A stretch of DNA of 63,530 bases from a virus. The position numbers and the translations under genes are program-made. Of this stretch, positions 39,946 through 55,924 are shown piece after piece. The notes under the pieces are model-generated. The model made no database searches and was not told the origin of the DNA. It was given only the letters and a program-made list of their open reading frames with translations. Where the stretch lies: positions 1-63,530 of IMG/VR virus record IMGVR_UViG_3300030109_005803; one strand, 5' to 3'. How positions within the stretch are numbered: the first letter of the stretch is position 1; every line of letters begins with the position of its first letter.

Positions 39946-40731
39946 TTATCTTTTCCCATTTAGGAAATCTTCAAAATCAATATACTTGTAAAGCCCATTT
40001 AAGTTAGAATCAGGTGTACATGAATAAACTTCCAGCCCATCTATCCCGTCTATTACGCCTCTCGCATGCCGCCATATATTTATAATCTGACGCTCATTCG
40101 GCTTTCCAAAATGTACTCCCTTACCAAAGTAATCGCTGCGGAAGTGGTTCACATCGGTGTCCGCCGTGGACTCGTACTCGGCGCGACCATGGACAATTAT
40201 ATCCTTATTTGATTGTTTATCGTCTTTATATCTTGCATCGCATCCTACAAAAGCGATCTCATTGTATCCCAGAGCGTGTAAAATTACAAGACCCATATAT
40301 CCAGAATTTGGCCAATGTTGAGCATATATGTTTTTACCGGCAGGACCGCTCGGATCGAACTTTACGTCACCCAATGTTAGTCTTGACTCTTTTATACTGA
40401 ATACGTTTTCCTCATTAACAAACATCTCTTCAGCACTAACTTTATCCTGATCTTGAAAGTGCTCCGGACCATGATTCTCATTGTCTAAACAATCTGCGAG
40501 AAAGAACGCTTTCACATCTCTTTCGAGTATAACTTTATTTAGATCTTTATATATTGATCTAAGATCGTTACTATCGATGGATAGATAATATGTCGGATCG
40601 AAACCCCAGTCATCAAATGCTATGTACGCGCGGTTGAATGTTATAGTAGGATAATCCTTAAGTTTTTTAATATCTATCTTATTTAGCGATGGACCGGTTC
40701 CGATAATCCAAGCTAGCTTTTTTTTACTCAT
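39946..40731 (-). CDS. DUF115/GT42-like protein (putative glycosyltransferase)
   Basis: This 261-residue protein starts with IIGTGPSLNKIDIKKLKDYP and later has PNSGYMGLVILHALGYNEIA followed by FVGCDA. The pattern G-x-GPSL-x-x-ID ... SG-x-x-x-x-x-A-x-LGY-x-E-I-x-x-x-G-x-D is shared by DUF115 proteins and by GT42 sialyltransferases such as the Campylobacter CstII type. Those enzymes transfer CMP-activated nonulosonic acids. No membrane segment is seen. It overlaps the aminotransferase gene by 4 bases, so it is part of the same assembly line. Donor and acceptor unknown. Confidence 0.62.
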   Translation of the reverse strand: MSKKKLAWIIGTGPSLNKIDIKKLKDYPTITFNRAYIAFDDWGFDPTYYLSIDSNDLRSIYKDLNKVILERDVKAFFLADCLDNENHGPEHFQDQDKVSAEEMFVNEENVFSIKESRLTLGDVKFDPSGPAGKNIYAQHWPNSGYMGLVILHALGYNEIAFVGCDARYKDDKQSNKDIIVHGRAEYESTADTDVNHFRSDYFGKGVHFGKPNERQIINIWRHARGVIDGIDGLEVYSCTPDSNLNGLYKYIDFEDFLNGKR

Positions 40732-41909
40732 GATGTTTTTTCCTTTTTGGCGAATGACTTCTTAAACAACTCAGCCGCATGCTTTATATCTTTTTCGGTC
40801 AGATTTAAACTTGGTCTCAACCTGACTGAATTGAGACCTGTTTTATTACAAATAAGCCCATTTGTGTACAGTTCGCTTATTATTGTATCTCTAAACTCAC
40901 TGTTTTTTAAATCAAATCCGAAGATTAGCCCACAATTTCTCAAATTTAGTATCTCTGGCATTTCTGATAATGTTGTAAACAACAGTTTAGATATCTTATT
41001 AACATTATTTAATATATCGTATTCATTGTAAGCTTTGATAATATGTTTGCATCGAATCATATCCGAGATATCACCATCCCACGTTACTTCAAGTCTAACG
41101 CTATTTTCTGGTGAAAATATTTGTGAAAACTTGTCCCTTACCATTATCCCGGAAAGTTGGGTCTTCTTACCAAAAATAACAATATCTGGCACTACGTCAA
41201 CATGCTGAAAGAACCATAGTTTTCCAGTTCCTCCAAATCCAACCTGTATTTCATCAAAAACAAGGGGCACATCGTATTCATCGCACAGCCTTCTCAATTG
41301 TTTAAAGAAGGTCTGATCATAATGAATGTCTCCAGCACTACATTGTATCGGCTCGACCAAAAGGCATGTAATATCGTTATTCCTCAAGCTCTCCTCGACC
41401 TTTTGTAAGTCCGGTGCTATTTTCATAGAGTAGTCTTCTGGGAATCCGTTTAATCTCTTGTCCGCTCCGGGGAATCTTGAAGTTATGAAACCACCGTAAC
41501 CGTTAATGCCATGAAAGCTATTGTGGAAGGATAATATCTTGGGCTTGTGAAATCTTTTATATAATATACAAGTTTTTATGGCCGCCTCAACTGCAAGGGC
41601 ACCGGTGCAACTATAATGGATGTTTTTAAAAATACCGACGCCGGCATATTCAGTAAACATTTTATCAAACTCAAGGGTCTCATCTGATACAAACTCACAA
41701 TTATTCATTTTTAACGAAGAAGCTCTCAGATACTCTTCGATAAATTCAGAAGTTTTAAATATCGGATGATTATACCCTAACGGCAATGAGGCATACATTC
41801 CGAAAAAATCAAGAATTTCTCTATGAGTGTTTTTATCATATAAATATAGCCCATGACTTTTTTCAAAGTCTACTTTGATTCCAAATTTAGTACTTCTTGC
41901 TAAAGACAT
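40728..41909 (-). CDS. Class III PLP aminotransferase
   Basis: This 393-residue enzyme has the fold-type I class III pattern: the PLP phosphate loop (SCTGALAVEAAIKT), FHNSFHGINGYGG, VEPIQCSAGD, FDEIQVGFGGTGKLW and FGKKTQLSG with the Schiff-base Lys. The FGKKTQ motif is typical of the lysine-6-aminotransferase-like branch. In this cluster a keto-sugar or keto-cyclitol is a likely amino acceptor, because the cyclase-like gene overlaps it by 10 bases. Most sugar aminotransferases are instead of the DegT class, so a class III enzyme here is unusual. Confidence 0.82.
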   Translation of the reverse strand: MSLARSTKFGIKVDFEKSHGLYLYDKNTHREILDFFGMYASLPLGYNHPIFKTSEFIEEYLRASSLKMNNCEFVSDETLEFDKMFTEYAGVGIFKNIHYSCTGALAVEAAIKTCILYKRFHKPKILSFHNSFHGINGYGGFITSRFPGADKRLNGFPEDYSMKIAPDLQKVEESLRNNDITCLLVEPIQCSAGDIHYDQTFFKQLRRLCDEYDVPLVFDEIQVGFGGTGKLWFFQHVDVVPDIVIFGKKTQLSGIMVRDKFSQIFSPENSVRLEVTWDGDISDMIRCKHIIKAYNEYDILNNVNKISKLLFTTLSEMPEILNLRNCGLIFGFDLKNSEFRDTIISELYTNGLICNKTGLNSVRLRPSLNLTEKDIKHAAELFKKSFAKKEKTS

Positions 41910-42973
41910 ATACCCTCCATATAGTGCTTTAAATCTTCCTTAAGTTTGTCAATTGATATGCTTGCGTCTTTACCGATTTTGGTCACTCTTAAGTCTTTTA
42001 TTCCATATGGCAAAATACAAACGATATCTCCATCTGTATTCTTTTTGTCTTTTGTCAGTAAATCGTAGTAATCCTCAATCCTATTTTCGCCAATGTGGTA
42101 CTCCGTTAAATTATTTTTTAAGTGCTTATAAAAATAAAGATATGTTTTTTTGTTAATAATGTTGTTTTTTAAAGCAATGTAGTTAGCTATGTCCATCCCT
42201 ATCGTAACAGCTAGTCCATGGCTTATCCTGTAGTTACTTAGAGCCTCGATAGCGTGCCCAAACGTGTGTCCATAATTGAAAACCCTTCGTTCTCCCTTGT
42301 CGAACTCGTCTCTCTGCACCATCTCCCTTTTAATTGTCAGACTTTCTTTAATATAACGACCCATCAGATCGCAAGGATTTTGTAGAAGTTTGCTATATTC
42401 TCTTGTCATATCCTCCAAGAGGTGACTGTCGGCATAAATATAATAATGTAACATTTCACCAATGCCGGACCTAATATCATCTCGCGGAAGTGTTTTTAAA
42501 AACTCAGGGCAGCAGATAATTTTTTCTGGCGGGTGAAAAGATCCTAGCAGGTTTTTAGCGTTTGAAAAATTGATTGATGTTTTACTGCCAATGCAACTGT
42601 CTGCTTGAGCCAACAAGGTGGTCGGAAAGAACTTCCAACCGACACCACGATATAGCACAGACGCCGTAAAAGAAGTTACATCTTGAGTTATGCCGCCCCC
42701 TACTGCCACAAGTTTGTGATTTCGCTTAAAGCCGCTGGATATCAAAATAGACAGCACTTCTTGGCATGTCTGTAACGTCTTGCTCTCTTCTGATACTTTC
42801 AACACGTAGACTCTTTTAGGGTCTACTGTGTTTCGAAATACGGGATATTCGTCATAGATATATTTATCTATTACTAAAAAATCCATGTCCTGAATCTGGG
42901 ACTCAACCGCCTCTTTTAGAGACGCGTCGAACTCCACATGGTACTTTCCCTTATGCGAAGCAACACTAAACAT
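41900..42973 (-). CDS. 3-dehydroquinate-synthase-superfamily sugar-phosphate cyclase
   Basis: This 357-residue protein is in the AroB superfamily: AVGGGITQDVTSFTASVLYR, FPTTLLAQADSCIGSKTSIN, NLLGSFHPPEKI, SGIGEMLHYYIY and FNYGHTFGHAIEAL. The Glu and two His zinc ligands are visible. In true AroB the Glu is followed by x-x-Lys (E-x-I-K). Here the position reads GEMLHY, so that catalytic Lys is His. This, and the absence of other shikimate genes, argues against dehydroquinate synthesis. It suggests a relative of the secondary-metabolite cyclases (2-deoxy-scyllo-inosose or 2-epi-5-epi-valiolone type). Substrate unknown. Confidence 0.8.
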   Translation of the reverse strand: MFSVASHKGKYHVEFDASLKEAVESQIQDMDFLVIDKYIYDEYPVFRNTVDPKRVYVLKVSEESKTLQTCQEVLSILISSGFKRNHKLVAVGGGITQDVTSFTASVLYRGVGWKFFPTTLLAQADSCIGSKTSINFSNAKNLLGSFHPPEKIICCPEFLKTLPRDDIRSGIGEMLHYYIYADSHLLEDMTREYSKLLQNPCDLMGRYIKESLTIKREMVQRDEFDKGERRVFNYGHTFGHAIEALSNYRISHGLAVTIGMDIANYIALKNNIINKKTYLYFYKHLKNNLTEYHIGENRIEDYYDLLTKDKKNTDGDIVCILPYGIKDLRVTKIGKDASISIDKLKEDLKHYMEGICL

Positions 42974-43649
42974 TTACGAAGCCCCCGTCTACAATTAAAT
43001 TTTGTCCTGTAAGATACGTGTTATACTCGCTGGCCAAAAATAAAACTACTTTTGATATTTCTTCTGGTGCTGCCATCCTCTTCATTGGAACTTGCTCACA
43101 CATCTCAGAAATACCCTTTGTACCAAGAATTCTTGTTGTCAATTCAGTCGCTGTAAACCCAGGCGACACACAGTTAACTAGGACATTATGAGCCGCCATT
43201 TCGACTGCAAGAGTCTTCGTCATGCCGACAAGCGCAAACTTAGAAGTTGTATAGCAAGACCTCTTTTCTTTCGTACAGTGTCCGAATATTGATGCGATGT
43301 TAATGATCCTACCATACCCTCTGTCCTTCATTGATTTTGAAACCGCCTTTGATATCATAAAAGGCGCCTTTGTATTGATGTGCATTATCTTATCGTAATC
43401 CTCTTCTAGAACATCCTCAACATAATTTATTTTGTTAATACCAGCATTATTTACACAAACATCAATCCTGAGGGTCTCCAAGAGCTTTACAAAATCATTC
43501 AGTTCTTTCCCGTTAGTGAGGTCGTAGGTTGAGCTTGGATAGGACACAACTTCGGCGCCCAGTGATTTAAAATCATCGGAAATGCACTTTCCGATTCCTC
43601 TCGTAGCGCCTGTGACTAACACTACTTTATTACTAAAATCAAGATTCAT
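42966..43649 (-). CDS. Short-chain dehydrogenase/reductase (FabG-like)
   Basis: This 227-residue classical SDR has TGATRGIGK (cofactor loop), NNAG near 88, a catalytic Ser in NIASIFG, YTTSK with Tyr and Lys, and the C-terminal LTGQNLIVDGGF. The family reduces keto groups or oxidises alcohols with NAD(P)H. Wedged between the cyclase (8-base overlap) and the cytidylyltransferase-like gene (11-base overlap), it most likely acts on the cyclase or sugar product rather than on fatty acids. The substrate is inferred from context. Confidence 0.82.
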   Translation of the reverse strand: MNLDFSNKVVLVTGATRGIGKCISDDFKSLGAEVVSYPSSTYDLTNGKELNDFVKLLETLRIDVCVNNAGINKINYVEDVLEEDYDKIMHINTKAPFMISKAVSKSMKDRGYGRIINIASIFGHCTKEKRSCYTTSKFALVGMTKTLAVEMAAHNVLVNCVSPGFTATELTTRILGTKGISEMCEQVPMKRMAAPEEISKVVLFLASEYNTYLTGQNLIVDGGFVNV

Positions 43650-44775
43650 TTTTTTCAGGATATACGTGCTCTACGTCTTCTCTACTAACGGCTAGCCTAA
43701 TAGCGGGTTTGTCTCCGACAGCAGTAATATGGTGTACTCTGTTTTTTGGTATAAAAACTATGTCGTCCTTTCCAACTATTATCTTTTGCCCCTCAATGTC
43801 CCACTCCCATTGTCCATCAACAATATACCACCATTCGTTCCACTCAGGGTGATAGTGTGCTCTGTTGCCCTCTCCGGGCATTTGGTGTATTAGGGTGGCA
43901 CTATTATTTTCAGTATTAACCACTCTCTTGCTCCAAGAAACCGAGCTATCGAAACTGCTTATGATGTCTTTGACATTGACAGGGATCTCACTATTGGCTG
44001 AGTGTAAATCATTAGTATTGACCCCATCTTTTGCTAATATACTGGGGACATCCACTTCAACATGAAGACCGTCGCCATAGTATCTTGGCTCGTAGGTCTC
44101 CTTGGACGCCAAATGTCTAGCAACCAACTCAGCTAACTGAAAGTCTTCCTCTTCATCAACATCTATTGTGGAGTGTCCGGTCAAAGTGTAATAGCCTACC
44201 TCGCCATCGCCCCCATGATACCCGGAGCCGTACTTGTTCATATTATCTTTATAATTTTCGCTTCTCCAAGCCATCAATCCACAAGCATAAGCTCCCACTG
44301 GCGTTACCTCCTGTGAGGGTGGAGAGGGCTTTTTCTTATCAAAATTAATTGCATTTCCGTCATACACACACTCAATTTGTTGCTTATCCAGGGAAACCAA
44401 GGTATCGTAGTCACCGGTGGCGACCATTTTCGTAAAGCTTTTAATGTCCTTCACCGACAGAAAGGGAGAAGTTGCCAGAACCTGTACCATGAAATCACAC
44501 TCTACGTTCTCTATGAAGTCCAGTGAAAAATCATCATTTGTTGCCGAGTCGGTCGATAGGTGAGGCGATCTCTTATAAAATCTAACCCCTTCAGATACTG
44601 CTATCTCTCCAATTAAGTCCGACTCTGTGTTAACATATATCTCATCGAAACATTGGCTTTCTTTTACCGCTCGTATGATATATGAGATAAGAGGGATTCC
44701 GTTAAGAAGTCTTATGTTTTTTTTGGGTATTCTTTTGCTGCCCAGACGGGCAGGTATCATTGCTACAATTTTCAT
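43639..44775 (-). CDS. Cytidylyltransferase (NeuA/KdsB-like) fused to a cupin domain
   Basis: This 378-residue two-domain protein carries a CMP-sugar synthetase at residues 1-230: ARLGSKRIPKKNIR, the typical CTP-binding loop, then VLATSPF and a YACGLMAW strand. Residues 290-375 are a cupin with HYHPEWNEWWYI, GDIVF-like strands and IPKNRVHHITA, the metal-binding pattern of mannose-6-phosphate-isomerase-like or oxalate-type cupins. NeuA-class enzymes activate nonulosonic acids or KDO as CMP derivatives. The fusion might couple isomerisation or product binding to activation. Substrate unknown; the sialyltransferase-like neighbour supports a CMP donor. Confidence 0.8.
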   Translation of the reverse strand: MKIVAMIPARLGSKRIPKKNIRLLNGIPLISYIIRAVKESQCFDEIYVNTESDLIGEIAVSEGVRFYKRSPHLSTDSATNDDFSLDFIENVECDFMVQVLATSPFLSVKDIKSFTKMVATGDYDTLVSLDKQQIECVYDGNAINFDKKKPSPPSQEVTPVGAYACGLMAWRSENYKDNMNKYGSGYHGGDGEVGYYTLTGHSTIDVDEEEDFQLAELVARHLASKETYEPRYYGDGLHVEVDVPSILAKDGVNTNDLHSANSEIPVNVKDIISSFDSSVSWSKRVVNTENNSATLIHQMPGEGNRAHYHPEWNEWWYIVDGQWEWDIEGQKIIVGKDDIVFIPKNRVHHITAVGDKPAIRLAVSREDVEHVYPEKNES

Positions 44776-45647
44776 CTGTTGGTAACCTTTTGTATAGTGT
44801 GATTAAAATTTTCAGTTAGATACTTATCTAAAGTCATTTTCTTGCCATAGTGAAAATACACCATCTTGTGAAAATAATTGATTTGCGGCTGTTGCTGGTG
44901 TATATCAATCCTCAAATCTGCAAAGTTAGGAACTTTATCAGAATCTTCTCTGAAGTTGTTGTTTGTCATGGCTTCGTTATGATACTTATCATAATATATT
45001 TGGCCAAACTTATTCATGTTAAAGAAAGTCATGCCAGTTAGATACAATTCTTTTATATCGTAATTTAGAAGGGTTATAATTCCAGTTAGACCTGTGTTAC
45101 AGGTTGTTCCCACTTCCTTGAAAATCTTAAATAAATATCCATCACTAACGTTGTGCCAAGGGACACCAGTTGTATCTAAAAAGTCATGGACCCTCTGTAT
45201 ATCCCACATCGAAACCATCGGGCAAACAATGTACTTCATATCCTTTGCGAAGCTCATATTATTCTTAAGGGCGGCGATCTTATTACAATTTAGGCAATTC
45301 ATTAAGATATCTGTTCTTTTACCGTAATCTTCCCAGTTCTCTTCCTGCATATGAAAAGCTTGGTTTACGCGAACTACCAAATCAAACGAATCAATATATT
45401 CCCCCATCTTCATCCCCTTTAAGTGAGGAGATGGGCACACATAAGCTATTCTTTTACCACTAACCAGTTCTGCTAGACTGTTATCTATCTCATAGTCTTC
45501 AAACTTGTCAATGAAATTACCTCTTCTGCCAAGATCAGCCAATTGACTCTCTGGTAGAGGTGTCGATGACTGCCAGGGAGGAGCACTATTCGATAGAGGA
45601 ATATTTATTATTTCTCTCTTTAAGCCTTCATACCATTTAGTGGACAT
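44772..45647 (-). CDS. GT29 (sialyltransferase)-like glycosyltransferase
   Basis: This 291-residue soluble protein resembles GT29 enzymes. A large sialyl-motif-like stretch is present (KGMKMGEYIDSFDLVVRVNQ, then YGKRTDILMNC), with the typical I-D-x-F-D-x-V-x-R-x-N core. A later VGTTCNTGLTGIITLL followed by YLTGMTFF matches the small-motif region. GT29 transfers sialic acid from CMP-donors and is best known from animals, with scattered marine bacterial and viral members. It overlaps the CMP-sugar-synthetase gene by 4 bases, a strong functional hint. The donor need not be Neu5Ac. Confidence 0.68.
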   Translation of the reverse strand: MSTKWYEGLKREIINIPLSNSAPPWQSSTPLPESQLADLGRRGNFIDKFEDYEIDNSLAELVSGKRIAYVCPSPHLKGMKMGEYIDSFDLVVRVNQAFHMQEENWEDYGKRTDILMNCLNCNKIAALKNNMSFAKDMKYIVCPMVSMWDIQRVHDFLDTTGVPWHNVSDGYLFKIFKEVGTTCNTGLTGIITLLNYDIKELYLTGMTFFNMNKFGQIYYDKYHNEAMTNNNFREDSDKVPNFADLRIDIHQQQPQINYFHKMVYFHYGKKMTLDKYLTENFNHTIQKVTNR

Positions 45648-45655
45648 TTACTAGC

Positions 45656-46603
45656 CTACCAAATAAAATTGTTTTTGTAATATTCGACAATTGACTTTAT
45701 CTCTTCATCAAATACCTTCTTGGGATTCCAACCTAACGATCTAAGCTTTTCGTCATTTAAGGCATAACGAACATCTTGCCCTTGGCGAGAATATGAAAAA
45801 TCCACATACTGTTGCCAATCCGCGGTGCCGTGGTGTGCAGCTACTATTTTCCTGACTGTTTCAGAGTTTGCCTGCTCAAAGCCGCCGGCAACATTGTATA
45901 TCTCATTTATTTTTCCGGATTCAATAATAGTTAAAACTGCTTCAGCTGTGTCATCAGCGTGAAGCCAATTGCGTATTGGAGTCCCACCATCATGCAACCT
46001 AATCTTTCTCCCTCTGATAAGATTTTTAACTGAGAGCGGTACTAATTTTTCTGGGTATTGTCCAATACCATAGTTGTTTGTTGGTCGCAAAATAACATAT
46101 TCTACGTTATACGTTCTAGCCCAGGCAAGAACAAGCATGTCAGCGGAGGCTTTGCTTGCTGAGTAAGGGTTACTTGGGTGCAATAGGTGATTTTCTGTGT
46201 GTTCACCATGTTCAATGTCTCCGTAAACTTCATCTGTACTAAAATGAAATAGTATTGGGCGCCGATGGCAGTTCTCTGGTCTGTTGCGTATTAGGTCTAG
46301 CAGGTTTCTCACTCCTACAATATTACTACTTATAAACTCTTTACTATCTATAATACTGTTTCCAACGTGCGACTCGGCCGCGGTGTTTATCACATAATCG
46401 CAATCGTAGAGGTGTGTTAAATCCTTAATATCTTTTTCTAAAAACGTGAAGTTGGAGAATTGCGTGAACTCCTCTAACAAATTTTTATTTGCTGCATACG
46501 TGCATTTATCAATTCCATAAACCATCCAGCCGCGCTCTAGACATTTTCTAGTGACATACGATCCTATGAAGCCTAGGCATCCTGTGACATATACAATCTT
46601 CAT
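45656..46603 (-). CDS. NDP-glucose 4,6-dehydratase (RmlB-like)
   Basis: This 315-residue extended SDR has VTGCLGFIGSYV, HFSTDEVYGDIEH, YSASKASADMLV and RPTNNYGIGQYPEKLVP, followed by PIRNWLHADDTAEAV, all hallmarks of dTDP-glucose 4,6-dehydratase. It makes the 4-keto-6-deoxyglucose nucleotide that feeds deoxysugar pathways. The usual RmlA partner is not visible in the island, so the activated glucose may come from the host. It lies directly next to the E1-type 3-dehydrase (1-base gap), which suggests that enzyme uses its product. Confidence 0.88.
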   Translation of the reverse strand: MKIVYVTGCLGFIGSYVTRKCLERGWMVYGIDKCTYAANKNLLEEFTQFSNFTFLEKDIKDLTHLYDCDYVINTAAESHVGNSIIDSKEFISSNIVGVRNLLDLIRNRPENCHRRPILFHFSTDEVYGDIEHGEHTENHLLHPSNPYSASKASADMLVLAWARTYNVEYVILRPTNNYGIGQYPEKLVPLSVKNLIRGRKIRLHDGGTPIRNWLHADDTAEAVLTIIESGKINEIYNVAGGFEQANSETVRKIVAAHHGTADWQQYVDFSYSRQGQDVRYALNDEKLRSLGWNPKKVFDEEIKSIVEYYKNNFIW

Positions 46604-46604
46604 C

Positions 46605-47957
46605 TTAGGTCATGACCTCCATAAAGGTATCAACCACCTTCTTAATATATTCAATTTTCTCGTCGGTGTAACCTATGTAAGTCCCCAGGAAAACTGAGCT
46701 AGCGGTTGCTGTATGAGCATTTGGATATCTCTCTTCTAAATCAACGCCTTCCGGACGCAAATGAGCATATGCTGGATGATATAAAACGTTTCCGGTAAAA
46801 TACGATCTTGTTTGGATCTTATTGTATTCCATATAATCAACAAAATCTTGTTTCGTAAAACTATCGTTGTCTTTAACAAGCAGAAGGAATCCAAACCAAC
46901 ACGGGTCCGCTTTCTCTGTAGCCTTTGGTAGGTGAAAATGATCTTCATACTTTTCAAAAATTGAATAAATTTTATCAAAGTTCTCTCGTCTCGCGGACTC
47001 CATCTCTGGAAGCTTTTTGAGTTGTTCCAACCCCATTGCTGCCTGTAGATCAAGTGGCTTAAGGTTATATCCTATTTCATCAAAAACATATCTATGATCA
47101 TACGTCAGTGCCTTGTTGCCATCTAGCCAGTTTTTAAATCGATTCCCACACGCTGTTCCAGACGTCACGTCGCCGGGCTTTAGAGTGTTGCAGTAACAGG
47201 CGCGACCCCAGTCTCGGTAACTGGACAGGGCCATTTGAGTAGCTGCTGAATTTGTAGCCACGAAACCACCCTCACCCGTAGTCATATGATGTGCCGGGAA
47301 GAAAGAGCAACTCGCGAGATCTCCATAAGAGCCAAGCTTTTTGCCATCATATGTAGATCCTAGGGCATCACATGCATCCTCAAGAAAAATCAAATCATAT
47401 TGCTTAACTAAGGACATTAACCTATCCATGTCTGGAGGGTTACCCAAAACATGGGCAAAGATTATGCCTTTAATTTCCTTGTTCGTATCGTTCTTTAATA
47501 CTTGTTCTACTTCATCTAAATTTAGATTTAGACTTGGGATATCAACGTCAACAAACACTGGCTCAAACCCATTTTGGATTAGAGGATTAATAGTAGTTGG
47601 GAAACAGACAATTGGAGTTATAAACTTAGATCCAGCCTCTAGTCGATACTTTTTGGGCAGCTTGTTCTGGGAACGCAATACAGAGGTCATCAAAAGGTTG
47701 GCTGAGGATCCGGAGTTCGTTAAGATTCCTCGCTTTTTACCTAATAATTGTGGGAACTCTTTCTCAAATTGAGAGGCGTTCTGTCCGAAGATCAACCACT
47801 CACTGAGCAGGGACTTCACAGCAGCGTGATACTCTTTCTCATCAAAGTGTGGTCCAGAGTACTTAACCCAGTCTCCCTCTTCCCACTTTTCATTAAGCTT
47901 CTTTTCAGAAACATATTCAGTAATTAGCTGTAATATTTGCTCCATTTTGTCAGACAT
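46605..47957 (-). CDS. E1/RfbH-type NDP-4-keto-6-deoxyhexose 3-dehydrase
   Basis: This 450-residue DegT-fold enzyme lacks the PLP Lys. The motif reads SFFPAHHMTTGEGG, with His where aminotransferases have Lys, the signature of CDP-6-deoxy-4-ketoglucose 3-dehydrase (RfbH/E1). Cys in EDACDALG, and CYC plus TACGNRF after SYRDWGR, fit the [2Fe-2S] ligands of that family. E1 removes the C3 hydroxyl with electrons from a reductase (E3); no E3 gene is in the island. The length (450) is close to RfbH (about 437) and longer than the related ColD. This points to a 3,6-dideoxyhexose. Confidence 0.88.
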   Translation of the reverse strand: MSDKMEQILQLITEYVSEKKLNEKWEEGDWVKYSGPHFDEKEYHAAVKSLLSEWLIFGQNASQFEKEFPQLLGKKRGILTNSGSSANLLMTSVLRSQNKLPKKYRLEAGSKFITPIVCFPTTINPLIQNGFEPVFVDVDIPSLNLNLDEVEQVLKNDTNKEIKGIIFAHVLGNPPDMDRLMSLVKQYDLIFLEDACDALGSTYDGKKLGSYGDLASCSFFPAHHMTTGEGGFVATNSAATQMALSSYRDWGRACYCNTLKPGDVTSGTACGNRFKNWLDGNKALTYDHRYVFDEIGYNLKPLDLQAAMGLEQLKKLPEMESARRENFDKIYSIFEKYEDHFHLPKATEKADPCWFGFLLLVKDNDSFTKQDFVDYMEYNKIQTRSYFTGNVLYHPAYAHLRPEGVDLEERYPNAHTATASSVFLGTYIGYTDEKIEYIKKVVDTFMEVMT

Positions 47958-48778
47958 TCTTTTAATCCTTTTCGCAATCCTATTGTTTTAATATTTAGGC
48001 TGTCGATTCGAGCGCTACAACCACTATAGCCCAAACCATTTTCTTCTTCTATAATAACATCAAAGGAGCCATTAGTTAAATTCTTATACTCCTGAATGAT
48101 GTCGCTGATCTTGTACTTCTGGCTGTAACAGGCGTTTATGTCCTTTGGTATGTTACTACTATCATGATTGTTTATGATATGGCTTATCAAGCGCCCCACA
48201 TCTTTTGAATAAATAAAGTCCATTTCTTTATCTTGGTGGATTACGGGATTTTGCCCATTTAGCACCTTATTGTGGGTCGCTTTAATTAATCTTTGCTCTT
48301 CCTCATAAGAGCCGAAGCACCCAAATAATCTAATGTTAAAAATGTTTTTGTCAATGTCTAAAATTTTTTTTGTTATGGTATTTTTAGACATGCCGTAAAA
48401 GTCTTTCGGGCGCCTTTGATGTATCTCTTTTTCTTTAATCCGATATATCTGTTGACCCCTGTCAAATTCCGCGCCGGATCCAAAATTAAACATGATTTGA
48501 AATCTATCAGAGAAAAAAGACAAATTATCAAACATTGCAATATTATCATTGTAATCTTGTTCCGTGTCCTGTCTCCCTCTTTTCCCGCCCTTAACAGCAG
48601 TGTGAATTACGACATCAACCTGATTGTTGCTGAAGAAGTTCTCTACTTGTTTAAAGTTGGTTGGATCAAGAGTAGACCTGTTTGTTAATATTAGTTCTAC
48701 TTTTGACTCCAGGCCGGCGAAGTACTCTTTCAGTTCTTTTGCTAAAAATCCATTGGCACCGGTAATTAAATACTTCAT
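47924..48778 (-). CDS. NAD-dependent epimerase/dehydratase (SDR)
   Basis: This 284-residue protein has ITGANGFLAKELKEYF for cofactor binding and an extended-SDR shape with a Tyr/Lys pair (YGMSKNTITKK). Residues FNIRLFGCFGSYE and MDFIYSKDVGRLI resemble epimerases or reductases acting on nucleotide sugars. It overlaps the transketolase-half gene by 4 bases and the E1-type dehydrase by 34. A likely role is to reduce or epimerise the sugar after the other two enzymes act, the part played by the reductase in the yersiniose pathway. Confidence 0.75.
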   Translation of the reverse strand: MKYLITGANGFLAKELKEYFAGLESKVELILTNRSTLDPTNFKQVENFFSNNQVDVVIHTAVKGGKRGRQDTEQDYNDNIAMFDNLSFFSDRFQIMFNFGSGAEFDRGQQIYRIKEKEIHQRRPKDFYGMSKNTITKKILDIDKNIFNIRLFGCFGSYEEEQRLIKATHNKVLNGQNPVIHQDKEMDFIYSKDVGRLISHIINNHDSSNIPKDINACYSQKYKISDIIQEYKNLTNGSFDVIIEEENGLGYSGCSARIDSLNIKTIGLRKGLKECLTKWSKYYS

Positions 48779-49260
48779 CTCTTAAGATTCATATATATTG
48801 GAGTTTTCTTGTCAAATAGTGTCGTTGAGGTTGTACACCAGTCAACCAGCTGCTCAACATTGGGAGGTCGAACTAGTTTAATGTTGGAGAATGTTGCCAT
48901 AACCTTTTCGTCTTCCTCAGCCCAATGAGAAAAGCCTAGATACCCATAATCGCGGGATCTTCCTCCACCAATTAACTTAACAGGAAGCTTCTCATGGTCA
49001 ACGTAATTTCTAATAAACTCAAAAGGACGGTATAATAGAAAAGGTGTAATTGAATAAACAAAAGGTATCTTGCCATCCATCGCCATTCCTGAAGCCATAC
49101 CCATCATAAGCTGTTCGGAAGAGCCAACATTCCAAAAACGATCTGGGTAATCAATCCTGATCTTGTCCCACAACCCATAGCCCAGATCGCCCGTAAGAAC
49201 AACTATATCCTCATTGGCTGACATCTCTTGATGAAGAATCTTAGCAAACTCTTTTCTCAT
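48775..49260 (-). CDS. Transketolase C-terminal half (pyrimidine-binding subunit)
   Basis: This 161-residue protein is the pyrimidine (PP) domain of a transketolase-type enzyme: VVLTGDLGYGLWDKIR, WNVGSSEQLMMGMASGMAMD with the catalytic Glu, and YSITPFLLYRPFEFIRN. The PYR half must pair with the diphosphate-binding half encoded by the next upstream gene, which it overlaps in an ATGA. The third, C-terminal transketolase domain is missing, as in two-subunit enzymes that attach C2 units to keto-sugars in some actinobacterial branched-chain octose pathways. Confidence 0.82.
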   Translation of the reverse strand: MRKEFAKILHQEMSANEDIVVLTGDLGYGLWDKIRIDYPDRFWNVGSSEQLMMGMASGMAMDGKIPFVYSITPFLLYRPFEFIRNYVDHEKLPVKLIGGGRSRDYGYLGFSHWAEEDEKVMATFSNIKLVRPPNVEQLVDWCTTSTTLFDKKTPIYMNLKR

Positions 49261-49889
49261 CCCTGCAATTCCTCGATCGCAGCTTTATAATCCTGTTCAT
49301 CCATAATGTGGTAGTGCGCGTTTAGCCCTCGTAAGAAAGAAAATTGATTAACACTTGTATGGATAATTTCTATCTCTGGTAGAAATGCTTTGAGTCTCTT
49401 GGTTAGGTACCCCTTGTCGACTGCCTCATAGGCAGCGTATCCGTTCAAATTAGCGTATACCTTTATGTTGGTGACGTTGTGTACCTTTATGAACCTTAAA
49501 GCCTCCCAGATCGATCCTTCGGCGCTCTCGCCGTCACTTATTAAACAATGGACTGTTCTTGATGGATCAGCTAGCGCGCGACCTACTGCCACAGTGAGCC
49601 CCATCCCTAGACTACCAGTTGAGCAATGCAAATCATCTTTCTCATTTCTATGTGGGTGACCCCCGTGTTTATCAAAAAGTTTTTCGGCGTCATGACCACG
49701 ATATTTCTCTAAAACAACGTACAGAGCTAAGGCACAATGACCAGACGAAAGAATAAAAATATCGTCCTTCTCCATACCAGCATAGATATCTTCTATAATT
49801 CCTACGCTCGATAAATAACTACCAAGGTGCGACAATCTTCTGTTATATGCGATATCTAATATCCGTTTCTTCAGTGCTAGATCTTCCAT
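49257..49889 (-). CDS. Transketolase N-terminal half (thiamine diphosphate-binding subunit)
   Basis: This 210-residue protein corresponds to the thiamine-diphosphate domain of transketolase. It has FILSSGHCALALYVVL (SGH motif), GHPHRN, TGSLGMGLTVAVGRAL, and a cofactor motif SDGES ... ANLNGY in place of the usual GDG ... NN. Together with the 161-residue subunit it would form a complete two-chain enzyme that moves a two-carbon ketol. A conventional transketolase would be over 600 residues, so this is a compact relative. In this island its acceptor is probably an NDP-keto-deoxysugar, as the 3-dehydrase and an SDR are adjacent. Confidence 0.84.
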   Translation of the reverse strand: MEDLALKKRILDIAYNRRLSHLGSYLSSVGIIEDIYAGMEKDDIFILSSGHCALALYVVLEKYRGHDAEKLFDKHGGHPHRNEKDDLHCSTGSLGMGLTVAVGRALADPSRTVHCLISDGESAEGSIWEALRFIKVHNVTNIKVYANLNGYAAYEAVDKGYLTKRLKAFLPEIEIIHTSVNQFSFLRGLNAHYHIMDEQDYKAAIEELQG

Positions 49890-50629
49890 TGGTCACTCCA
49901 ATGATCTTGTATCATCTTATCATAATTGACACCCTCTTTTTGTACTTTCCAAGTTGCTTGCTCGGGGTGCCATCTGTAGTTAAATCCGAGCCATATGGGC
50001 GCAGGAAATATCATAATTCCGTTATCCGCCAAGCTACAGTATAAATCATAATCGGCAGCGCCGCCATAAACTTCCGGCTTAGTTTGCAATAGACCTTCCC
50101 TGTACAACGAAGTGTTATATATCACTGTTGGGGTATTCACAGGGCACCTCTGTAGACTTTGGTCTTTAAACTCTTTTAAAGATGCATACTTGTGTGTGAC
50201 ATAGCCCGTTACGTCCTGTTTATGGTTAACTCCTCTTATAGGACTTTGAAGCGCCAAGATCTGGTCTGGTCGGGTCTGAATGATCTTCATACATTTGTTT
50301 ACAAAGCTTTTCTCAAGAAAATCGTCGGCTCCCATAACCAAAACATACTCGCCAGTCATCAACTCAAACCCACGAGATCGGGCCTCATCCCAGCAATTAG
50401 GGTATATGTTTTTGGCGCTAGAAATCATAAAACTTGGAGACTCCTCCAGAGCAGCAAATTCTGTAGCTAGTCGATTTGCTATTTCTAGACTGTTATCAGT
50501 GCTTTCATTGTCAACAAAAATAACCTCTAGATTTTGATAGTCTTGGTTTAGTGCTGACCTAAGACACTCTTCAATCCACTTTTCTGCATTAAAGCAGGGA
50601 ATTATAATACTAAATTTAGGAATACTCAT
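49877..50629 (-). CDS. Family 2 glycosyltransferase (GT-A)
   Basis: This 250-residue protein begins with FSIIIPCFNAEKWIEECLRS and NLEVIFVDNESTDNS, the nucleotide-binding part of inverting GT2 enzymes. It has a metal-binding motif at MGADDFLEKS. Asp in VDNESTD and the ADD sequence are the expected nucleotide and manganese ligands. It is soluble, with no membrane helices. It overlaps the thiamine-subunit gene by 13 bases. The sugar transferred is unknown, though the C2-branched or 3,6-dideoxy sugar made next door is a natural candidate. Confidence 0.87.
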   Translation of the reverse strand: MSIPKFSIIIPCFNAEKWIEECLRSALNQDYQNLEVIFVDNESTDNSLEIANRLATEFAALEESPSFMISSAKNIYPNCWDEARSRGFELMTGEYVLVMGADDFLEKSFVNKCMKIIQTRPDQILALQSPIRGVNHKQDVTGYVTHKYASLKEFKDQSLQRCPVNTPTVIYNTSLYREGLLQTKPEVYGGAADYDLYCSLADNGIMIFPAPIWLGFNYRWHPEQATWKVQKEGVNYDKMIQDHWSDQWKI

Positions 50630-50631
50630 GT

Positions 50632-51657
50632 TTATAGCTCTGTCATCTTCTGTACACGATGGATATATGTATGGTTCTTAACTACTTCATTACGATAATA
50701 CTCTTTTGTTTCATGAGCAAGTGCATCATTTGATAGATATTTATCTATTATCATCATCATCTCATCTTCTGATCCATACATGGGCAAATCCGGGAATATA
50801 TTTTTTATTGCGGTTATCATATCACTTACTAGAATCCCTGTCAACCCTAGAGCCTTGAAAGTTCTCTCATTAGTATCTAATCCTAAAATTCTTTGATAGT
50901 TGTCGTGGATATTTAACGCAATATTGCTATTATACAGAACTCTATTTTCTTGCTCGTGTGTTAGGTTTTTATTAATGAAAATACCACAATCTAATTTGCT
51001 CTTCATTAGTGGCTTAAAATGACTGCGCATAATTTGAGCTTTTTCATTAAACCCATTATTAGCCCAGCCTCCCACATAACAGACGTCATGGTTGTTCCTG
51101 TCGGATGGATCTTTTTTATAAGATATTGAATCAAAAGCTAAAGGTATATAATTGATCTTTTTCCATTCTTTATAATAAAGATCTTTAATCTCTGGTGATT
51201 GCTCTACCCACGTCCAGAGGTGAACGTTATCTAACTCATTTAAATAGTTAATCGCTTTGAGTCCAGTTCCTCCTAGAAAATCACTTGGTGAGTAGCCGCA
51301 TATAAAATTCGGATGCGAGCCCCAAGGAGATGGAAATTTAGTTGGCTGGACAAATACATAACACTTTTCACTCTTCTTGATTATCTCCATCGCGGAAGAA
51401 TATACAGACATAAAATGCCTCTGTGTTTGTGTAGTATTATTTTTATTCACAGCCATCTGATAACAAGAAGACAGCGTGTAGTCGTCTACCATAATACTAT
51501 AGCTACATCCTGATAGTGACTCTGATGCGCTAATCCAGTCACCTAAGCCCTGCGTTGGGATTGACTCATAGCCTAGATTTCCCCAGGCTGCAGAATACCC
51601 TCTATATATCGTTTGACCGGCGCCGGCTGGTAAATTACCCGGTAGTAAAACCTTCAT
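50632..51657 (-). CDS. Glycosyltransferase-like protein (CgeB/GT-B type)
   Basis: This 341-residue protein ends with the GT-B C-terminal pattern of CgeB-like transferases (LGLDTNERTFKALGLTGILV, then SDMITAIKNIFPDL), where the Glu pair binds the donor nucleotide. The N-terminus is glycine-rich (LLPGNLPAGAGQTIYRGYSA). It belongs to the run of transferases at 50-56 kb and overlaps the next one by 4 bases. Donor and acceptor cannot be read from the sequence. Confidence 0.72.
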   Translation of the reverse strand: MKVLLPGNLPAGAGQTIYRGYSAAWGNLGYESIPTQGLGDWISASESLSGCSYSIMVDDYTLSSCYQMAVNKNNTTQTQRHFMSVYSSAMEIIKKSEKCYVFVQPTKFPSPWGSHPNFICGYSPSDFLGGTGLKAINYLNELDNVHLWTWVEQSPEIKDLYYKEWKKINYIPLAFDSISYKKDPSDRNNHDVCYVGGWANNGFNEKAQIMRSHFKPLMKSKLDCGIFINKNLTHEQENRVLYNSNIALNIHDNYQRILGLDTNERTFKALGLTGILVSDMITAIKNIFPDLPMYGSEDEMMMIIDKYLSNDALAHETKEYYRNEVVKNHTYIHRVQKMTEL

Positions 51658-52577
51658 ATGCCATTAATATCCTTTAATAGATTGGACAACCGCATGTGTG
51701 ACTGATGGTCTTTGAGATATCTCTGGTATCCGGCCGCACTTAATTTTTCTACCAAAGTAGGAGTTTTCAGCAAATATTTTAGCTTAGAAATCATTTCATT
51801 TCGTTGAGAGAAGGTTATGATTTCTTTATCGATTTTAAAGTAATTTTCCAACCCTTTGGTGTTCTCTGTGACCAACAGTGCGCGGGAGGCTGGTACTTCA
51901 AACATGCGAGCCTTCATTTGTGTTTTTCTTTCGTGATCATTAGAGTTCTTGCTGAAGTTTATGCCGATGCGACTTTGGGAAGTTTTTGATAACATATCTG
52001 TATATTCCAAGCCATGGGTTACCTCTATATTCAAGCCAGCGTCTCTAATCATGTTGATATAGCTTGTCCTATCTTGGTTAAGATGTCCACAAAATATAAT
52101 GTCTGTTTGCTTGGGTAGCTTCTCTTGTGGATATAGGTTTTTATTTGCGTGCCACAAGCCTAGAAATATGTTTTCGTAGTTTGCTTCATTCCTATATCTT
52201 TCCAGATAAGATGGTTCGGGAGTGGAACAAGCAGTAAAAAGGTGGCATGCGCGCGAGGAAAAGTTATCAAATCGCCAAGTGTCATCACAAAACCAGTTGA
52301 ATGTCTTGACAAGTCCACTTTTTGTATACTTCTCTATCTGCTCCCATGGTTCGTGCGGGGTCATGGCAGGGTTGTTTGTCATACAGCAAAAAATTAAATC
52401 AGGCTTAAAAGTATCTACTATCTTGGAATAATCTTTATCTTTTGGATTTACCGTATCATAAAGGTAAACGTCGTGGCCCAGATCTTTTAAGGGGAGGAAC
52501 ACATTCCAATATCCGTAATCTATCCACGTAGCAGTTCCGTTTGTTAAAGTTTTATTTAAGGTTAATAATATTTTCAT
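51654..52577 (-). CDS. CgeB/DUF3880-like glycosyltransferase
   Basis: This 307-residue GT-B protein has LPLKDLGHDVYLYDTVNPKD and DLIFCCMTNNP in the N-domain, and IIFCGHLNQDRTSYINMI in the linker. RMFEVPASRALLVTENTKGL forms the donor site of the C-domain. This matches the DUF3880 plus Glyco_trans_1_2 arrangement named after the spore protein CgeB. Both this and the previous protein keep the E-x-x-A pattern at the donor site. A 4-base overlap with each neighbour indicates one transcript. Confidence 0.75.
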   Translation of the reverse strand: MKILLTLNKTLTNGTATWIDYGYWNVFLPLKDLGHDVYLYDTVNPKDKDYSKIVDTFKPDLIFCCMTNNPAMTPHEPWEQIEKYTKSGLVKTFNWFCDDTWRFDNFSSRACHLFTACSTPEPSYLERYRNEANYENIFLGLWHANKNLYPQEKLPKQTDIIFCGHLNQDRTSYINMIRDAGLNIEVTHGLEYTDMLSKTSQSRIGINFSKNSNDHERKTQMKARMFEVPASRALLVTENTKGLENYFKIDKEIITFSQRNEMISKLKYLLKTPTLVEKLSAAGYQRYLKDHQSHMRLSNLLKDINGI

Positions 52578-53425
52578 CTAAATACATCTAATATTTTCTT
52601 TGGAATTTCACTTCGTTTGTTTCTCATGACATTTATCAGCTCTGAACCTTTTAGTGAAAACCACTCTTCTTTTGACGCGCCTAAGTTTTTATTGGTAACC
52701 ACGCTCATACCCATCATTCGCGCCTCGACGGCTATTCTTGATAATGTCTCAGGAGTTTTTGGCAAGAAAATTAAAAATTTATTAGCACCGAGTCTTTCCA
52801 GAAAATCTCTGTATTGCAAAGTGGGTATAAGTTCAAATTCAAGATTTTTAATTTTACAATAGTTGACTGCATCAGAAGTATTTTTGTGACTTATGTTAGA
52901 GTTCATTATAGAATAAACACTCTTCTTCTCTTTTTTGGCAATTTCCTCTAAAAAGTCAAGCACGTCTGACTCCCACAAATTTCCCCCAACATTTGTTATG
53001 TTGTTTAGTTCTAGATTCTTCTCAACTATTTCTTCATGAAACTTACTCTGGCAGATGACTGCTAGGGCTGATTTATAAAAATCGAAGTTAATGATCTCGG
53101 ACGGCGGTGCGTGATAATTGTCATACAGTGCCGGATTTCTACTTCTTAGGTATTTGTGGTCGTGTTCGTATATAATATACTTTTTATTTTGCAAAAGTGT
53201 CTTAACTTGTTCCGATAAGTTAATAAAATTTGAGATGATAAACCAAGAATTTGAGTTTTTTGTAATATACTCTTCATTAACAAGATGGCAATTCTTTTTT
53301 TCAACCTCGTAGCCTAAACCACTAAGAATATTAATTAATTCTTCGTTGTTTAGTTCACCGCCTCCGGGGATTTCATTAGAAAAATAGTCAGCAATAAATA
53401 CTATGCTACTCATGCTCCTCAACAT
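52574..53425 (-). CDS. Glycosyltransferase-like protein (GT-B, group 1 type)
   Basis: This 283-residue protein starts with VFIADYFSNEIPGGGELNNE, the typical start of GT4-type enzymes with a G-G-x-E loop. It ends with PKTPETLSRIAVEARMMGMS, a C-terminal E-x-x-x-x-E donor site. It is shorter than most GT4 enzymes. The start is chosen at an ATG with AAGGA upstream; a second in-frame ATG 12 bases later is possible. It is likely part of the same glycan assembly as its neighbours. Confidence 0.68.
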   Translation of the reverse strand: MLRSMSSIVFIADYFSNEIPGGGELNNEELINILSGLGYEVEKKNCHLVNEEYITKNSNSWFIISNFINLSEQVKTLLQNKKYIIYEHDHKYLRSRNPALYDNYHAPPSEIINFDFYKSALAVICQSKFHEEIVEKNLELNNITNVGGNLWESDVLDFLEEIAKKEKKSVYSIMNSNISHKNTSDAVNYCKIKNLEFELIPTLQYRDFLERLGANKFLIFLPKTPETLSRIAVEARMMGMSVVTNKNLGASKEEWFSLKGSELINVMRNKRSEIPKKILDVFR

Positions 53426-54674
53426 CTAGTCCTTCTAACCATCCCTCAACATCAAAGTCTTCCTCTCCCTCCAGACTTATACCCAGGGCGTTTAGGAAAT
53501 TTTCATAAAGTTGCTCTTCAGCAAAGTTTTTATGAATATGATTTTTCAATGTTTCGGCCTCTTTTTTCCAGTGAGTTTCTTTCTCTAAGCATTCTTTCAA
53601 AGCAGACTTATAATGTTTCTCTTTGGCATATGCCCACTTGGAATCAGCTTGGATTATTCCATCCCAAACTGCATGCGGCTGCACATTCTCTATATCATAG
53701 TCTACCTTGATTACTCTTGGCACTTGTTTACCCTTCTTGTTAGGCTTACAAATAAAATCCATCTGTCCCGACCAAGTTGTTGTAATCAGAGGCAAGCCAT
53801 GATAAGCAGCCTCAAACAAAGGAAGACCATAACCTTCACCATGTCCAATATTAATCATTGCTCTCATTGTGGGATGCTCGTAGAGCCACGCTAGGTTACC
53901 AGGAGACATTTCACCATGAATTAGATACACTGTACACTTACGGTCTTCGTAAGGCGCCAGGAGCGTCTGCAGGCGATTTTGTGTAAATTCCCTGTCCGTG
54001 ATAGAGTCCGACGCTGTATTAGCCTTAACTACTAAACCAACTTCTTCATCGTCAGCAAAGGTCTCCACAAACCACTTGATCGTATTATCCAGATTCTTCC
54101 TTGGTCCCCACTGTGCGATCGCAAGGAAATTTTTATCGGTTCTAAAATCTATATTTACTTCTTCAGGATCAAACATTCTAACCGGATAATTAACCGTTTC
54201 TACTGGTACGTTCAATCCCCATCCCTTAATTTCATTTCCTTGCTGGTCATTGACATCATACTTTGTCTGTTCAAACACTTTTTTTGAGTGATTAGAAACA
54301 ACAATTATCTTATTAACTGTTTCATTAGATTTGGATATCCATTGAGGTGAAACTTTAGTAGTCTCAATCCCAGCTGTGTATCCGATATTTATTGGCGCTA
54401 TCTTTTCAAACTCATTTGGTACCGTGACTTGTAACGAAACATCAAATTGCCCTCCTTGTTGGGCGTACATCTGAGTTTTCATAATAAGATTGTGGATTAG
54501 GTCTGACTCTTCATCAACAGCGGCTATTTGCCCAGTTCTTCCCCAGGGGATGTTGATGATATAAATATCAAACAAGTCTGGTCGGGACTGTAACGACCTT
54601 AAAGCAAAACGAGCTTGTTCTCCATACCCAGAGCGTGATAGAACTGGACCTTTGATTAAAATCTTTCTTAACAT
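53406..54674 (-). CDS. Group 1 glycosyltransferase (GT4-like)
   Basis: This 422-residue GT-B enzyme has the N-terminal loop KGPVLSRSGYGEQARFALRS and a C-terminal GHGEGYGLPLFEAAYHGLPL with the E-x-x-x-x-x-E donor signature. ARWGP-like NFLAIAQWGPRKNLDN lies in the linker. The acidic C-terminus (LEGEEDFDVEGWLEGLDVEE) is unusual. It overlaps the next transferase by 20 bases and shares one base with the one before. Retaining transfer of a nucleotide-activated sugar is expected; identity unknown. Confidence 0.82.
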   Translation of the reverse strand: MLRKILIKGPVLSRSGYGEQARFALRSLQSRPDLFDIYIINIPWGRTGQIAAVDEESDLIHNLIMKTQMYAQQGGQFDVSLQVTVPNEFEKIAPINIGYTAGIETTKVSPQWISKSNETVNKIIVVSNHSKKVFEQTKYDVNDQQGNEIKGWGLNVPVETVNYPVRMFDPEEVNIDFRTDKNFLAIAQWGPRKNLDNTIKWFVETFADDEEVGLVVKANTASDSITDREFTQNRLQTLLAPYEDRKCTVYLIHGEMSPGNLAWLYEHPTMRAMINIGHGEGYGLPLFEAAYHGLPLITTTWSGQMDFICKPNKKGKQVPRVIKVDYDIENVQPHAVWDGIIQADSKWAYAKEKHYKSALKECLEKETHWKKEAETLKNHIHKNFAEEQLYENFLNALGISLEGEEDFDVEGWLEGLDVEEHE

Positions 54675-55924
54675 TAGTATACCTTTACTTCGTATGAATC
54701 GTAGCCCTTACGGTCTTCCCAAGAGCCTTTTTCTTCGTTTATTGAGGTGAACAAATCATCCCATCTCTGAATGAATTTATCGAACCCAAATCGATCCTCC
54801 GACCATTGGCGGCCGGCGAGACCCAATTCTCTTCTAGACTCCGGAGTCATTTCATAAAGTTCCACCAGAGCATTGATAAAATCGTCCTTCTTCAGACGAT
54901 CCTCATAAATGTATGGAACCTGCTGAGATCCAATGATGGCTTTAGAGATCGGGTTCAGTCCGATGCCAAAAAATTTCTCCCCATCAGTTACCTGATCCTG
55001 CAAGCCGCCGGTCATGTTAACCAATATGGGTGTGCCACAAGAAAGCGATTCCAAGGTTGAGAGACCAAACCCTTCGGCATCAGAAATGCAAACAGTAATA
55101 TCTGCCATATTATACATCCCTGCAAGGTCACTGGCACTGACTTTCTCTCTGGAGAACAAGACTTCACCATTTGTCAGCCCTAGCTCATGGATTATCGCCT
55201 CTAGATCTTGTCCATTATTGTCCTTGATATCAGTATGCATAATAAGACAAGCCTTATCGTGCCCTACCTTGTCTAAAAATTCTTTAAACCACCATATCAA
55301 GGTGCCAGATTGCTTGCGGCGCGCGTTACGACTATTCCAAAAACAGACAAATTTATCATCCAAATTTTTAGACACTCTCCAAGTCTTAACCTCTTCCACC
55401 GAGTGTGGTTTAAAAACATCAGGATTTACAGCATGTGGAATATAAGAAGAATCTACTTCTGGTGTCACTGTCTCAACTATATCATGCGTAACTTTAGATA
55501 TACATGCAACATGATCATTTGAAAGATAGAATTTGCGATTAAATTTCGGGTATGGATAATTGTCCCAAACATGATAATAGACCATTGGCACGTGTGCCCT
55601 AACTTCGTTCTCAATTGCCCATAACCATTCATAGAATCTTGGATCTGTCATAAACCAAAGTATATCCGGCTTTTGTTGTCGAATCATCGCACGGACCATA
55701 TCTGGGTTTCCGTAACCGTCGACGGGCCAAATAACCCAATCATTACCCCAAGTCTCAGTTTTTTGAGGATCATAACTAGCGTGCTTGATCGCGCCACCAA
55801 ATGAAACAAACTGGTACTTGCCAGTCTTAAGCATCCCTTCAATAATATACTTTGTTTGAGTTCCGACACCACTCGGAGATAGCGGATGATCGCTAATGGT
55901 GAAAATCTTAATCTTGTCTGACAT
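54674..55924 (-). CDS. Group 1 glycosyltransferase (GT4-like)
   Basis: This 416-residue GT-B protein has SDHPLSPSGVGTQTKYIIEG at the N-terminus, FVCFWNSRNARRKQSGTLIW in the linker and ISDAEGFGLSTLESLSCGTP at the donor site, with both expected Glu. The motif TGGLQDQVTDG follows. It is the first island gene transcribed and is followed at once by the other transferases, so transferases precede the sugar-building genes in the transcript. It may be the priming or first-addition enzyme, which is inference. Confidence 0.84.
   Translation of the reverse strand: MSDKIKIFTISDHPLSPSGVGTQTKYIIEGMLKTGKYQFVSFGGAIKHASYDPQKTETWGNDWVIWPVDGYGNPDMVRAMIRQQKPDILWFMTDPRFYEWLWAIENEVRAHVPMVYYHVWDNYPYPKFNRKFYLSNDHVACISKVTHDIVETVTPEVDSSYIPHAVNPDVFKPHSVEEVKTWRVSKNLDDKFVCFWNSRNARRKQSGTLIWWFKEFLDKVGHDKACLIMHTDIKDNNGQDLEAIIHELGLTNGEVLFSREKVSASDLAGMYNMADITVCISDAEGFGLSTLESLSCGTPILVNMTGGLQDQVTDGEKFFGIGLNPISKAIIGSQQVPYIYEDRLKKDDFINALVELYEMTPESRRELGLAGRQWSEDRFGFDKFIQRWDDLFTSINEEKGSWEDRKGYDSYEVKVY

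Follow-up and report, generated by a model that had tools for sequence, protein, structure and literature searches.

Why would a phage carry a transketolase next to genes for a deoxysugar? The question is raised by a tailed-phage contig of aquatic origin (IMG/VR virus record IMGVR_UViG_3300030109_005803; 64,886 bases), of which positions 1 to 63,530 were analyzed (63,530 nucleotides; hereafter the window). Besides genes for a baseplate-wedge protein, a primase, an exonuclease, and PhoH, the contig carries five consecutive minus-strand genes that an earlier note had assigned to an RmlB-like dehydratase, an E1/RfbH-type 3-dehydrase, a short-chain dehydrogenase/reductase (SDR), and a two-chain transketolase (TK). 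This assignment is confirmed by the positions of the open reading frames and by family profiles. In their order on the minus strand, with junctions that are either overlaps of 4-34 bp or a 1-bp gap, the genes are:

49257..49889, minus strand: TKN, thiamine diphosphate (ThDP)-binding chain of a miniature TK, 210 aa (Transketolase_N, 3.2e-6)
48775..49260, minus strand: TKpyr, pyrimidine-binding chain of the miniature TK, 161 aa (Transket_pyr, 1.9e-19)
47924..48778, minus strand: extended SDR, putative reductase of a side-chain ketone (Epimerase, 2.2e-21)
46605..47957, minus strand: E1/RfbH-type 3-dehydrase for nucleoside diphosphate (NDP)-4-keto-6-deoxyhexose, dependent on pyridoxamine 5'-phosphate (PMP) and [2Fe-2S] (NF011936, 441 bits)
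45656..46603, minus strand: RmlB-like NDP-glucose 4,6-dehydratase (TIGR01181, 1.5e-89)

Comparative sequence evidence, on which the entire analysis rests, suggests with good probability that the five genes encode a phage pathway for a C4-branched 3,6-dideoxy sugar that employs a minimal two-chain TK.

The proposed pathway and its enzymes

In the simplest reading, the enzymes act in the order RmlB, E1, TK, SDR. The RmlB-like protein would form NDP-4-keto-6-deoxyglucose, probably in its dTDP form, from which E1, using PMP and a [2Fe-2S] cluster that an electron donor of the host would re-reduce, would remove the oxygen at C3 to yield NDP-4-keto-3,6-dideoxyglucose. With a ketose phosphate or hydroxypyruvate as donor, TKN and TKpyr would then transfer a two-carbon unit (hydroxyacetyl) to the ketone at C4, giving a tertiary alcohol. 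Reduction of the side-chain ketone, the proposed task of the SDR, would result in a 4-C-(1,2-dihydroxyethyl)-3,6-dideoxyhexose that neighboring glycosyltransferases may attach to a glycan of the phage or its host. The likely product is dTDP-3,6-dideoxy-4-C-(1,2-dihydroxyethyl)-hexose, a scheme in which step order, donor, acceptor carbon, nucleotide, stereochemistry, and final glycan are what we infer. A survey of the open-access literature retrieved nothing relevant on RfbH together with a transketolase or on thiamine in connection with branched-chain or dideoxy sugars of phages.

TKN and TKpyr form a miniature TK: TKpyr stops where the Transketolase_C domain would start, and the contig contains no such domain (PF02780). 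Modeled singly with AlphaFold, the two chains, whose modeling the earlier note had proposed, gave confident structures (pLDDT 92 for TKN and 86 for TKpyr), with a split transketolase as the top Foldseek match of each (6yak and 6yaj, respectively). By both sequence and fold, they are closest to the split transketolase of Carboxydothermus hydrogenoformans (PMC7661550), which is likewise composed of two chains with the same PP and Pyr folds. The phage pair differs from this enzyme by the absence of the TKC domain, by altered acceptor-site residues, by its context in a sugar cluster, and by a TKN that is about 70 residues shorter than the resolved N chain.

The earlier note had named a loss of catalytic residues in the TK subunits as evidence that would speak against its reading, but every residue checked is retained. 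In the alignment with TktA of Escherichia coli, H21, H51, H78, D119, E124, N149, and H192 of TKN correspond to H26, H66, H100, D155, E160, N185, and H261, and E49, F74, H112, and R161 of TKpyr correspond to E411, F437, H473, and R520. The phage TK has thus kept the ThDP/Mg residues, the catalytic Glu411, and histidines 26, 66, 100, 261, and 473 (TktA numbering); the catalytic residues are invariant across 86-88 phage sequences. The acceptor site has changed: D469 and H461 of TktA are replaced by L108 and G100, and R91 lies opposite a gap (S385 and R358, whose alignment is uncertain, were not used). Leucine occupies the position of D469 in 86 of 88 phage sequences, and aspartate is retained in seven of nine bacterial mini-TKs. 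Because D469, S385, and R520 were mutated in the laboratory evolution that shifted E. coli TK away from phosphorylated acceptors (PMC5073344), the loss of D469, H461, and R91 suggests that the acceptor of the phage TK is probably not a phosphorylated aldose. The product of E1, which has no oxygen beside its ketone, would fit the altered acceptor site.

The INPHARED phage collection contains no close relative of TKpyr; its nine matching records reach about 32% identity at best. Bacterial mini-TK pairs (chains of about 240 and 165 aa), which also lack the C-terminal domain, were encountered in metagenome-assembled genomes (MAGs) of Patescibacteria, Omnitrophota, and Elusimicrobia (L020-L028) in a scan of bacterial genomes that covered two peptide patterns only. 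They retain about 35 residues that are missing from the phage TKN. Their genes recur in an operon whose other members encode a LegB/RmlB-like SDR, a PgfS/ArnC-like glycosyltransferase, and a methyltransferase whose N-terminal segment is rich in Cys; the operon possibly represents an undescribed pathway for a lipid-linked branched sugar.

The remaining enzymes of the module are consistent with the proposed chemistry. E1 scores 441 bits against the RfbH equivalog NF011936 (cut-off 423), and its best matches in the PDB are CDP-4-keto-6-deoxyglucose-3-dehydrase (3bcx/3bb8). The earlier note's observation that histidine replaces the lysine binding pyridoxal 5'-phosphate (PLP) and that the Fe-S cysteines are kept was corroborated by alignment (His223; Cys196, Cys254, Cys256, and Cys270). 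Despite this likeness, the protein differs from RfbH by an insertion in the Cys loop, an RmlB-like partner, and the absence of E3. The RmlB-like protein has the catalytic motifs STDEVY and YSASK, and its best PDB match is a dTDP-glucose 4,6-dehydratase (2hun), so that the dehydratase of the window looks to be of the dTDP (RmlB) type rather than the CDP (RfbG) type; with 300 bits, it remains below the cut-off of the TIGR01181 equivalog (365) and is therefore referred to as RmlB-like only. The SDR, an extended-type member of the Epimerase family with a Rossmann motif and YGMSK (YxxxK), could not be assigned to a named subfamily by profile search. In another phage contig, which lacks the TK pair, IscA-like, IscU-like, and ferredoxin-like genes flank E1 (L118:3062-5489), suggesting that cluster assembly and electron supply seem to matter in at least one such phage.

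Recurrence of the module and exchange of its ThDP enzyme

Viral relatives of the TK numbered 14 in a single-sequence search and 220 in a profile search, of which 80 were fetched for comparison; the sampling is tilted toward relatives of the window, and many contigs are fragments. Flanks of 7 kb or more on either side are available for 44 non-redundant TK-anchored loci. All 44 contain TKN, 43 the SDR, 41 a His-type (E1/ColD-like) DegT protein, and 39 a member of the RmlB clade. Three loci have no dehydrase nearby, but two of these encode one elsewhere in the record. All 76 DegT proteins at the TK loci have histidine, and none has lysine, at the PLP-lysine position; most are E1 with four cysteines, about a third are shorter and Fe-S-free, and a few are ColD-like. 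The presence of different 3-deoxygenases beside the same TK pair points to 3-deoxygenation as the shared chemistry. The Fe-S-free E1-like dehydrases (L070, L074, L107, and others; about 380 aa, motif FYASHVITAGG) form a distinct type.

Of 49 control loci with GDP-mannose dehydratase (Gmd) as the anchor, only 6 contain an E1-like dehydrase (Fisher p 2.6e-15). A 2x2 test within the Gmd-anchored loci gave p 0.23 with few TK cases, and for that reason the anchored comparison was chosen. The gene set is no chance arrangement, as it recurs in dozens of divergent viral contigs and is thus widespread beyond this one phage. The phage module also occurs, with glycosyltransferase neighbors like those of the window, in contigs assigned to MAGs of Maricaulis (L017, L018) and Thaumarchaeota (L019), which are probably phage contigs binned into cellular MAGs.

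The strongest evidence for a role in branching comes from a reciprocal, newly conducted search anchored on E1, which yielded 46 non-redundant full-flank phage loci. According to profiles built from the same phage sets, a ThDP carboligase is located beside E1 in 43 of them, with exactly one class in 40: a YerE-like enzyme in 25, the TK pair in 8, and a KADH-like pair, i.e., a two-chain enzyme of the alpha-ketoacid dehydrogenase type (E1_dh plus a pyrimidine-domain chain), in 7; three loci have two classes and three have none. Among the 49 Gmd control loci, five have any of the three classes (p 1e-17). Some of these controls encode SDR, E1, and RmlB without a TK, and two (L114, L172) have a TPP_enzyme N/M/C protein instead. 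The usual gene orders are E1-RmlB-ThDP-SDR and ThDP-SDR-E1-RmlB, and the nearest PDB entry of the YerE-like enzyme is the YerE-like JanthE (8rph; 375 bits versus 246 for AHAS).

The ThDP enzyme has been exchanged repeatedly. The E1 tree contains 27 changes of ThDP class; if only its well-supported branches are considered, the TK label must still have been gained or lost at least 13 times. One locus with the TK pair (L036) and another with a YerE-like enzyme and an HpcH/HpaI aldolase (L204) share 95% identity in E1 and 87% in RmlB. Two collinear loci (L041 and L198), which align at about 65-71% over many kb on both sides, differ in a 1.1-kb slot that holds the TK pair in one and the KADH-like pair in the other. 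The earlier note's suggestion that the TK pair takes the place of YerE is therefore supported, because the E1-RmlB-SDR set of sister phages holds a YerE-like enzyme or the third ThDP pair at this position. Branching of keto-sugars is known or has been proposed for three ThDP superfamilies, and it is to these that the occupants belong; DC, TK, and alphaKADH2 are the only superfamilies reported to use ketone acceptors (PMC12247030). It appears likely, albeit with somewhat less assurance than the pathway itself, that RmlB, E1, and SDR form a plug-in cassette of aquatic phages whose carbon-adding slot has been swapped repeatedly among three ThDP superfamilies to vary the branch, and that the mini-TK pair represents a new transketolase family that naturally accepts ketones and has nucleotide sugars as substrates.

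The pathways of yersiniose A/B and erwiniose (E1, E3, YerE or ErwE, and a ketoreductase) show the same clustering of 4,6-dehydratase, E1, ThDP carboligase, and reductase, and YerE-like enzymes fill the slot in sister phages; the window differs by a two-chain TK instead of YerE (TPP_enzyme N/M/C), an RmlB-like instead of an RfbG-type dehydratase, the absence of E3, and the phage setting. For the split TKs of miharamycin and amipurimycin biosynthesis, attachment of a hydroxyacetyl branch to a keto-sugar has likewise been proposed (PMC12247030, section 2.3), but they are uncharacterized enzymes of Streptomyces nucleoside antibiotics for which no E1 module is claimed, and the likeness is by description only. 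The AlphaKADH2 enzymes of aldgamycin, kosinostatin, and kibdelomycin (PMC12247030, section 2.2) are two-chain ThDP enzymes that add a C2 branch to a keto-sugar, and KADH-like pairs replace the TK pair in sister phages; they differ from the phage TK in superfamily, pyruvate donor, and their role in actinobacterial secondary metabolism.

The YerE-type enzyme is often accompanied by an HpcH/HpaI aldolase or by an acetaldehyde dehydrogenase and a DmpG-like aldolase, and these enzymes could make 4-hydroxy-2-oxo acids of the kind that ErwE prefers (PMC12247030). At two loci (L172:4001-7627 and L219), the YerE-type enzyme is followed by acetaldehyde dehydrogenase and DmpG-like aldolase, which resembles a phage-borne donor supply of the erwiniose kind. 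In several loci (L005:12537-14288, L118:6482-8278, L041, L198, and L213), RmlB is followed by a B12-binding radical SAM protein that may C-methylate the same sugar.

Alternative explanations

The TK pair might also be an ordinary enzyme of the pentose phosphate pathway that supplies a ketose phosphate (e.g., sedoheptulose 7-phosphate) to nearby heptose- or cyclitol-like genes, while E1, RmlB, and SDR make a plain 3,6-dideoxyhexose. The window indeed encodes a SIS-domain protein (39343-39927) and an AroB-like cyclase (41900-42973; putative phospholyase, TIGR04425), and kinase, HAD, or nucleotidyltransferase genes adjoin the TK pair in two other loci (L012, L013). However, the TK tracks E1 and SDR across viral loci rather than the AroB-like or SIS genes, the AroB-like gene is present in only two clustered loci (including the window), the acceptor-site residues of TKs acting on phosphorylated sugars are lost, and the alternative occupants of the slot are YerE-like and KADH-like enzymes, which make no ketose phosphates. 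A supply to the AroB-like or SIS genes was rejected on grounds of co-occurrence, and this explanation as a whole is quite improbable. A branched sugar that differs in the transferred unit or the carbon attacked is slightly less so but still unlikely. The donor could be a 2-oxo acid such as pyruvate (with a yersiniose-like acetyl branch), the attack could occur at C3, or the TK could act before E1. TKpyr is closer to the pyruvate-using DXS than to single-chain TK in the PDB search (although split TK is still the best match), and the KADH-like pairs of the same slot are expected to use pyruvate. TKN, by contrast, is TK-like, the residues matching H26, H66, H100, H261, and H473 of TktA are retained, and branching before E1 would be chemically awkward because E1 needs a free C4 ketone. 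A third possibility, that the genes are cargo in decay or without function and the TK is inactive, is extremely improbable: the TK chains are far shorter than those of any characterized TK, and TKN lacks residues that even bacterial mini-TKs possess, but the chains model confidently, the catalytic residues do not vary, many divergent phages have intact reading frames, and the two chains have been exchanged repeatedly as a unit.

Several observations weigh against a C4-branching pathway as proposed here. Bacterial mini-TKs sit in other operons, mostly without E1, and the most divergent phage pairs (L012, L013) adjoin PfkB-kinase-like, HAD, or nucleotidyltransferase genes without the full module. 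Four full-flank TK loci have no member of the RmlB clade, not even in their whole contigs, so that the 4,6-dehydratase step must come from the host there, and the RmlB homolog of the window stays under the equivalog cut-off for the dTDP enzyme. E1 requires electrons, and neither an E3-type reductase nor a 2Fe-2S ferredoxin domain (PF00175, PF00111) was found in any of 17 phage records, including the window, which implies that E1 depends on an electron donor of the host. Branching of a keto-sugar in vitro is not on record for a TK of any kind, and the split TKs of Streptomyces are proposals too (PMC12247030).

Genomic setting and implications

The genes directly upstream of the module provide a possible destination for its product:

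49877..55924, minus strand: six glycosyltransferase-like genes (Pfam matches for part, the rest by reading)

Pfam matches (Glycos_transf_2 and Glyco_trans_1_2) cover the genes in 49877-52577, the product of 52574-53425 has no Pfam match, and the products of 53406-55924 were assigned by reading the sequence only. Most near relatives likewise have versions of these genes upstream of TK, and the encoded proteins likely use the sugar of the module. On the other side of the module, the window contains a run of genes (40728-44775) for a cytidylyltransferase-cupin fusion (PseF-like), a FabG-like SDR, an AroB-related phospholyase (above the TIGR04425 cut-off), and a class III aminotransferase, which looks like a second pathway for an unusual sugar or cyclitol. 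The product of the gene at 44772-45647, which adjoins the cytidylyltransferase gene, shows weak similarity to glycosyltransferase family 29 (sialyltransferase).

The addition of a hydroxyacetyl unit to a sugar ketone by a TK is a proposal that awaits demonstration in vitro (PMC12247030). Because the phage TK pairs are small and lie beside genes that likely provide their substrate, the question of a ketone-branching TK becomes directly testable. Genes annotated in phages as transketolase, acetolactate synthase, or pyruvate dehydrogenase may encode enzymes that branch sugars instead of being auxiliary genes of central metabolism. The exchange of ThDP enzymes between close phages suggests a diversification of the branch on a surface sugar, perhaps altering receptor or exclusion properties.

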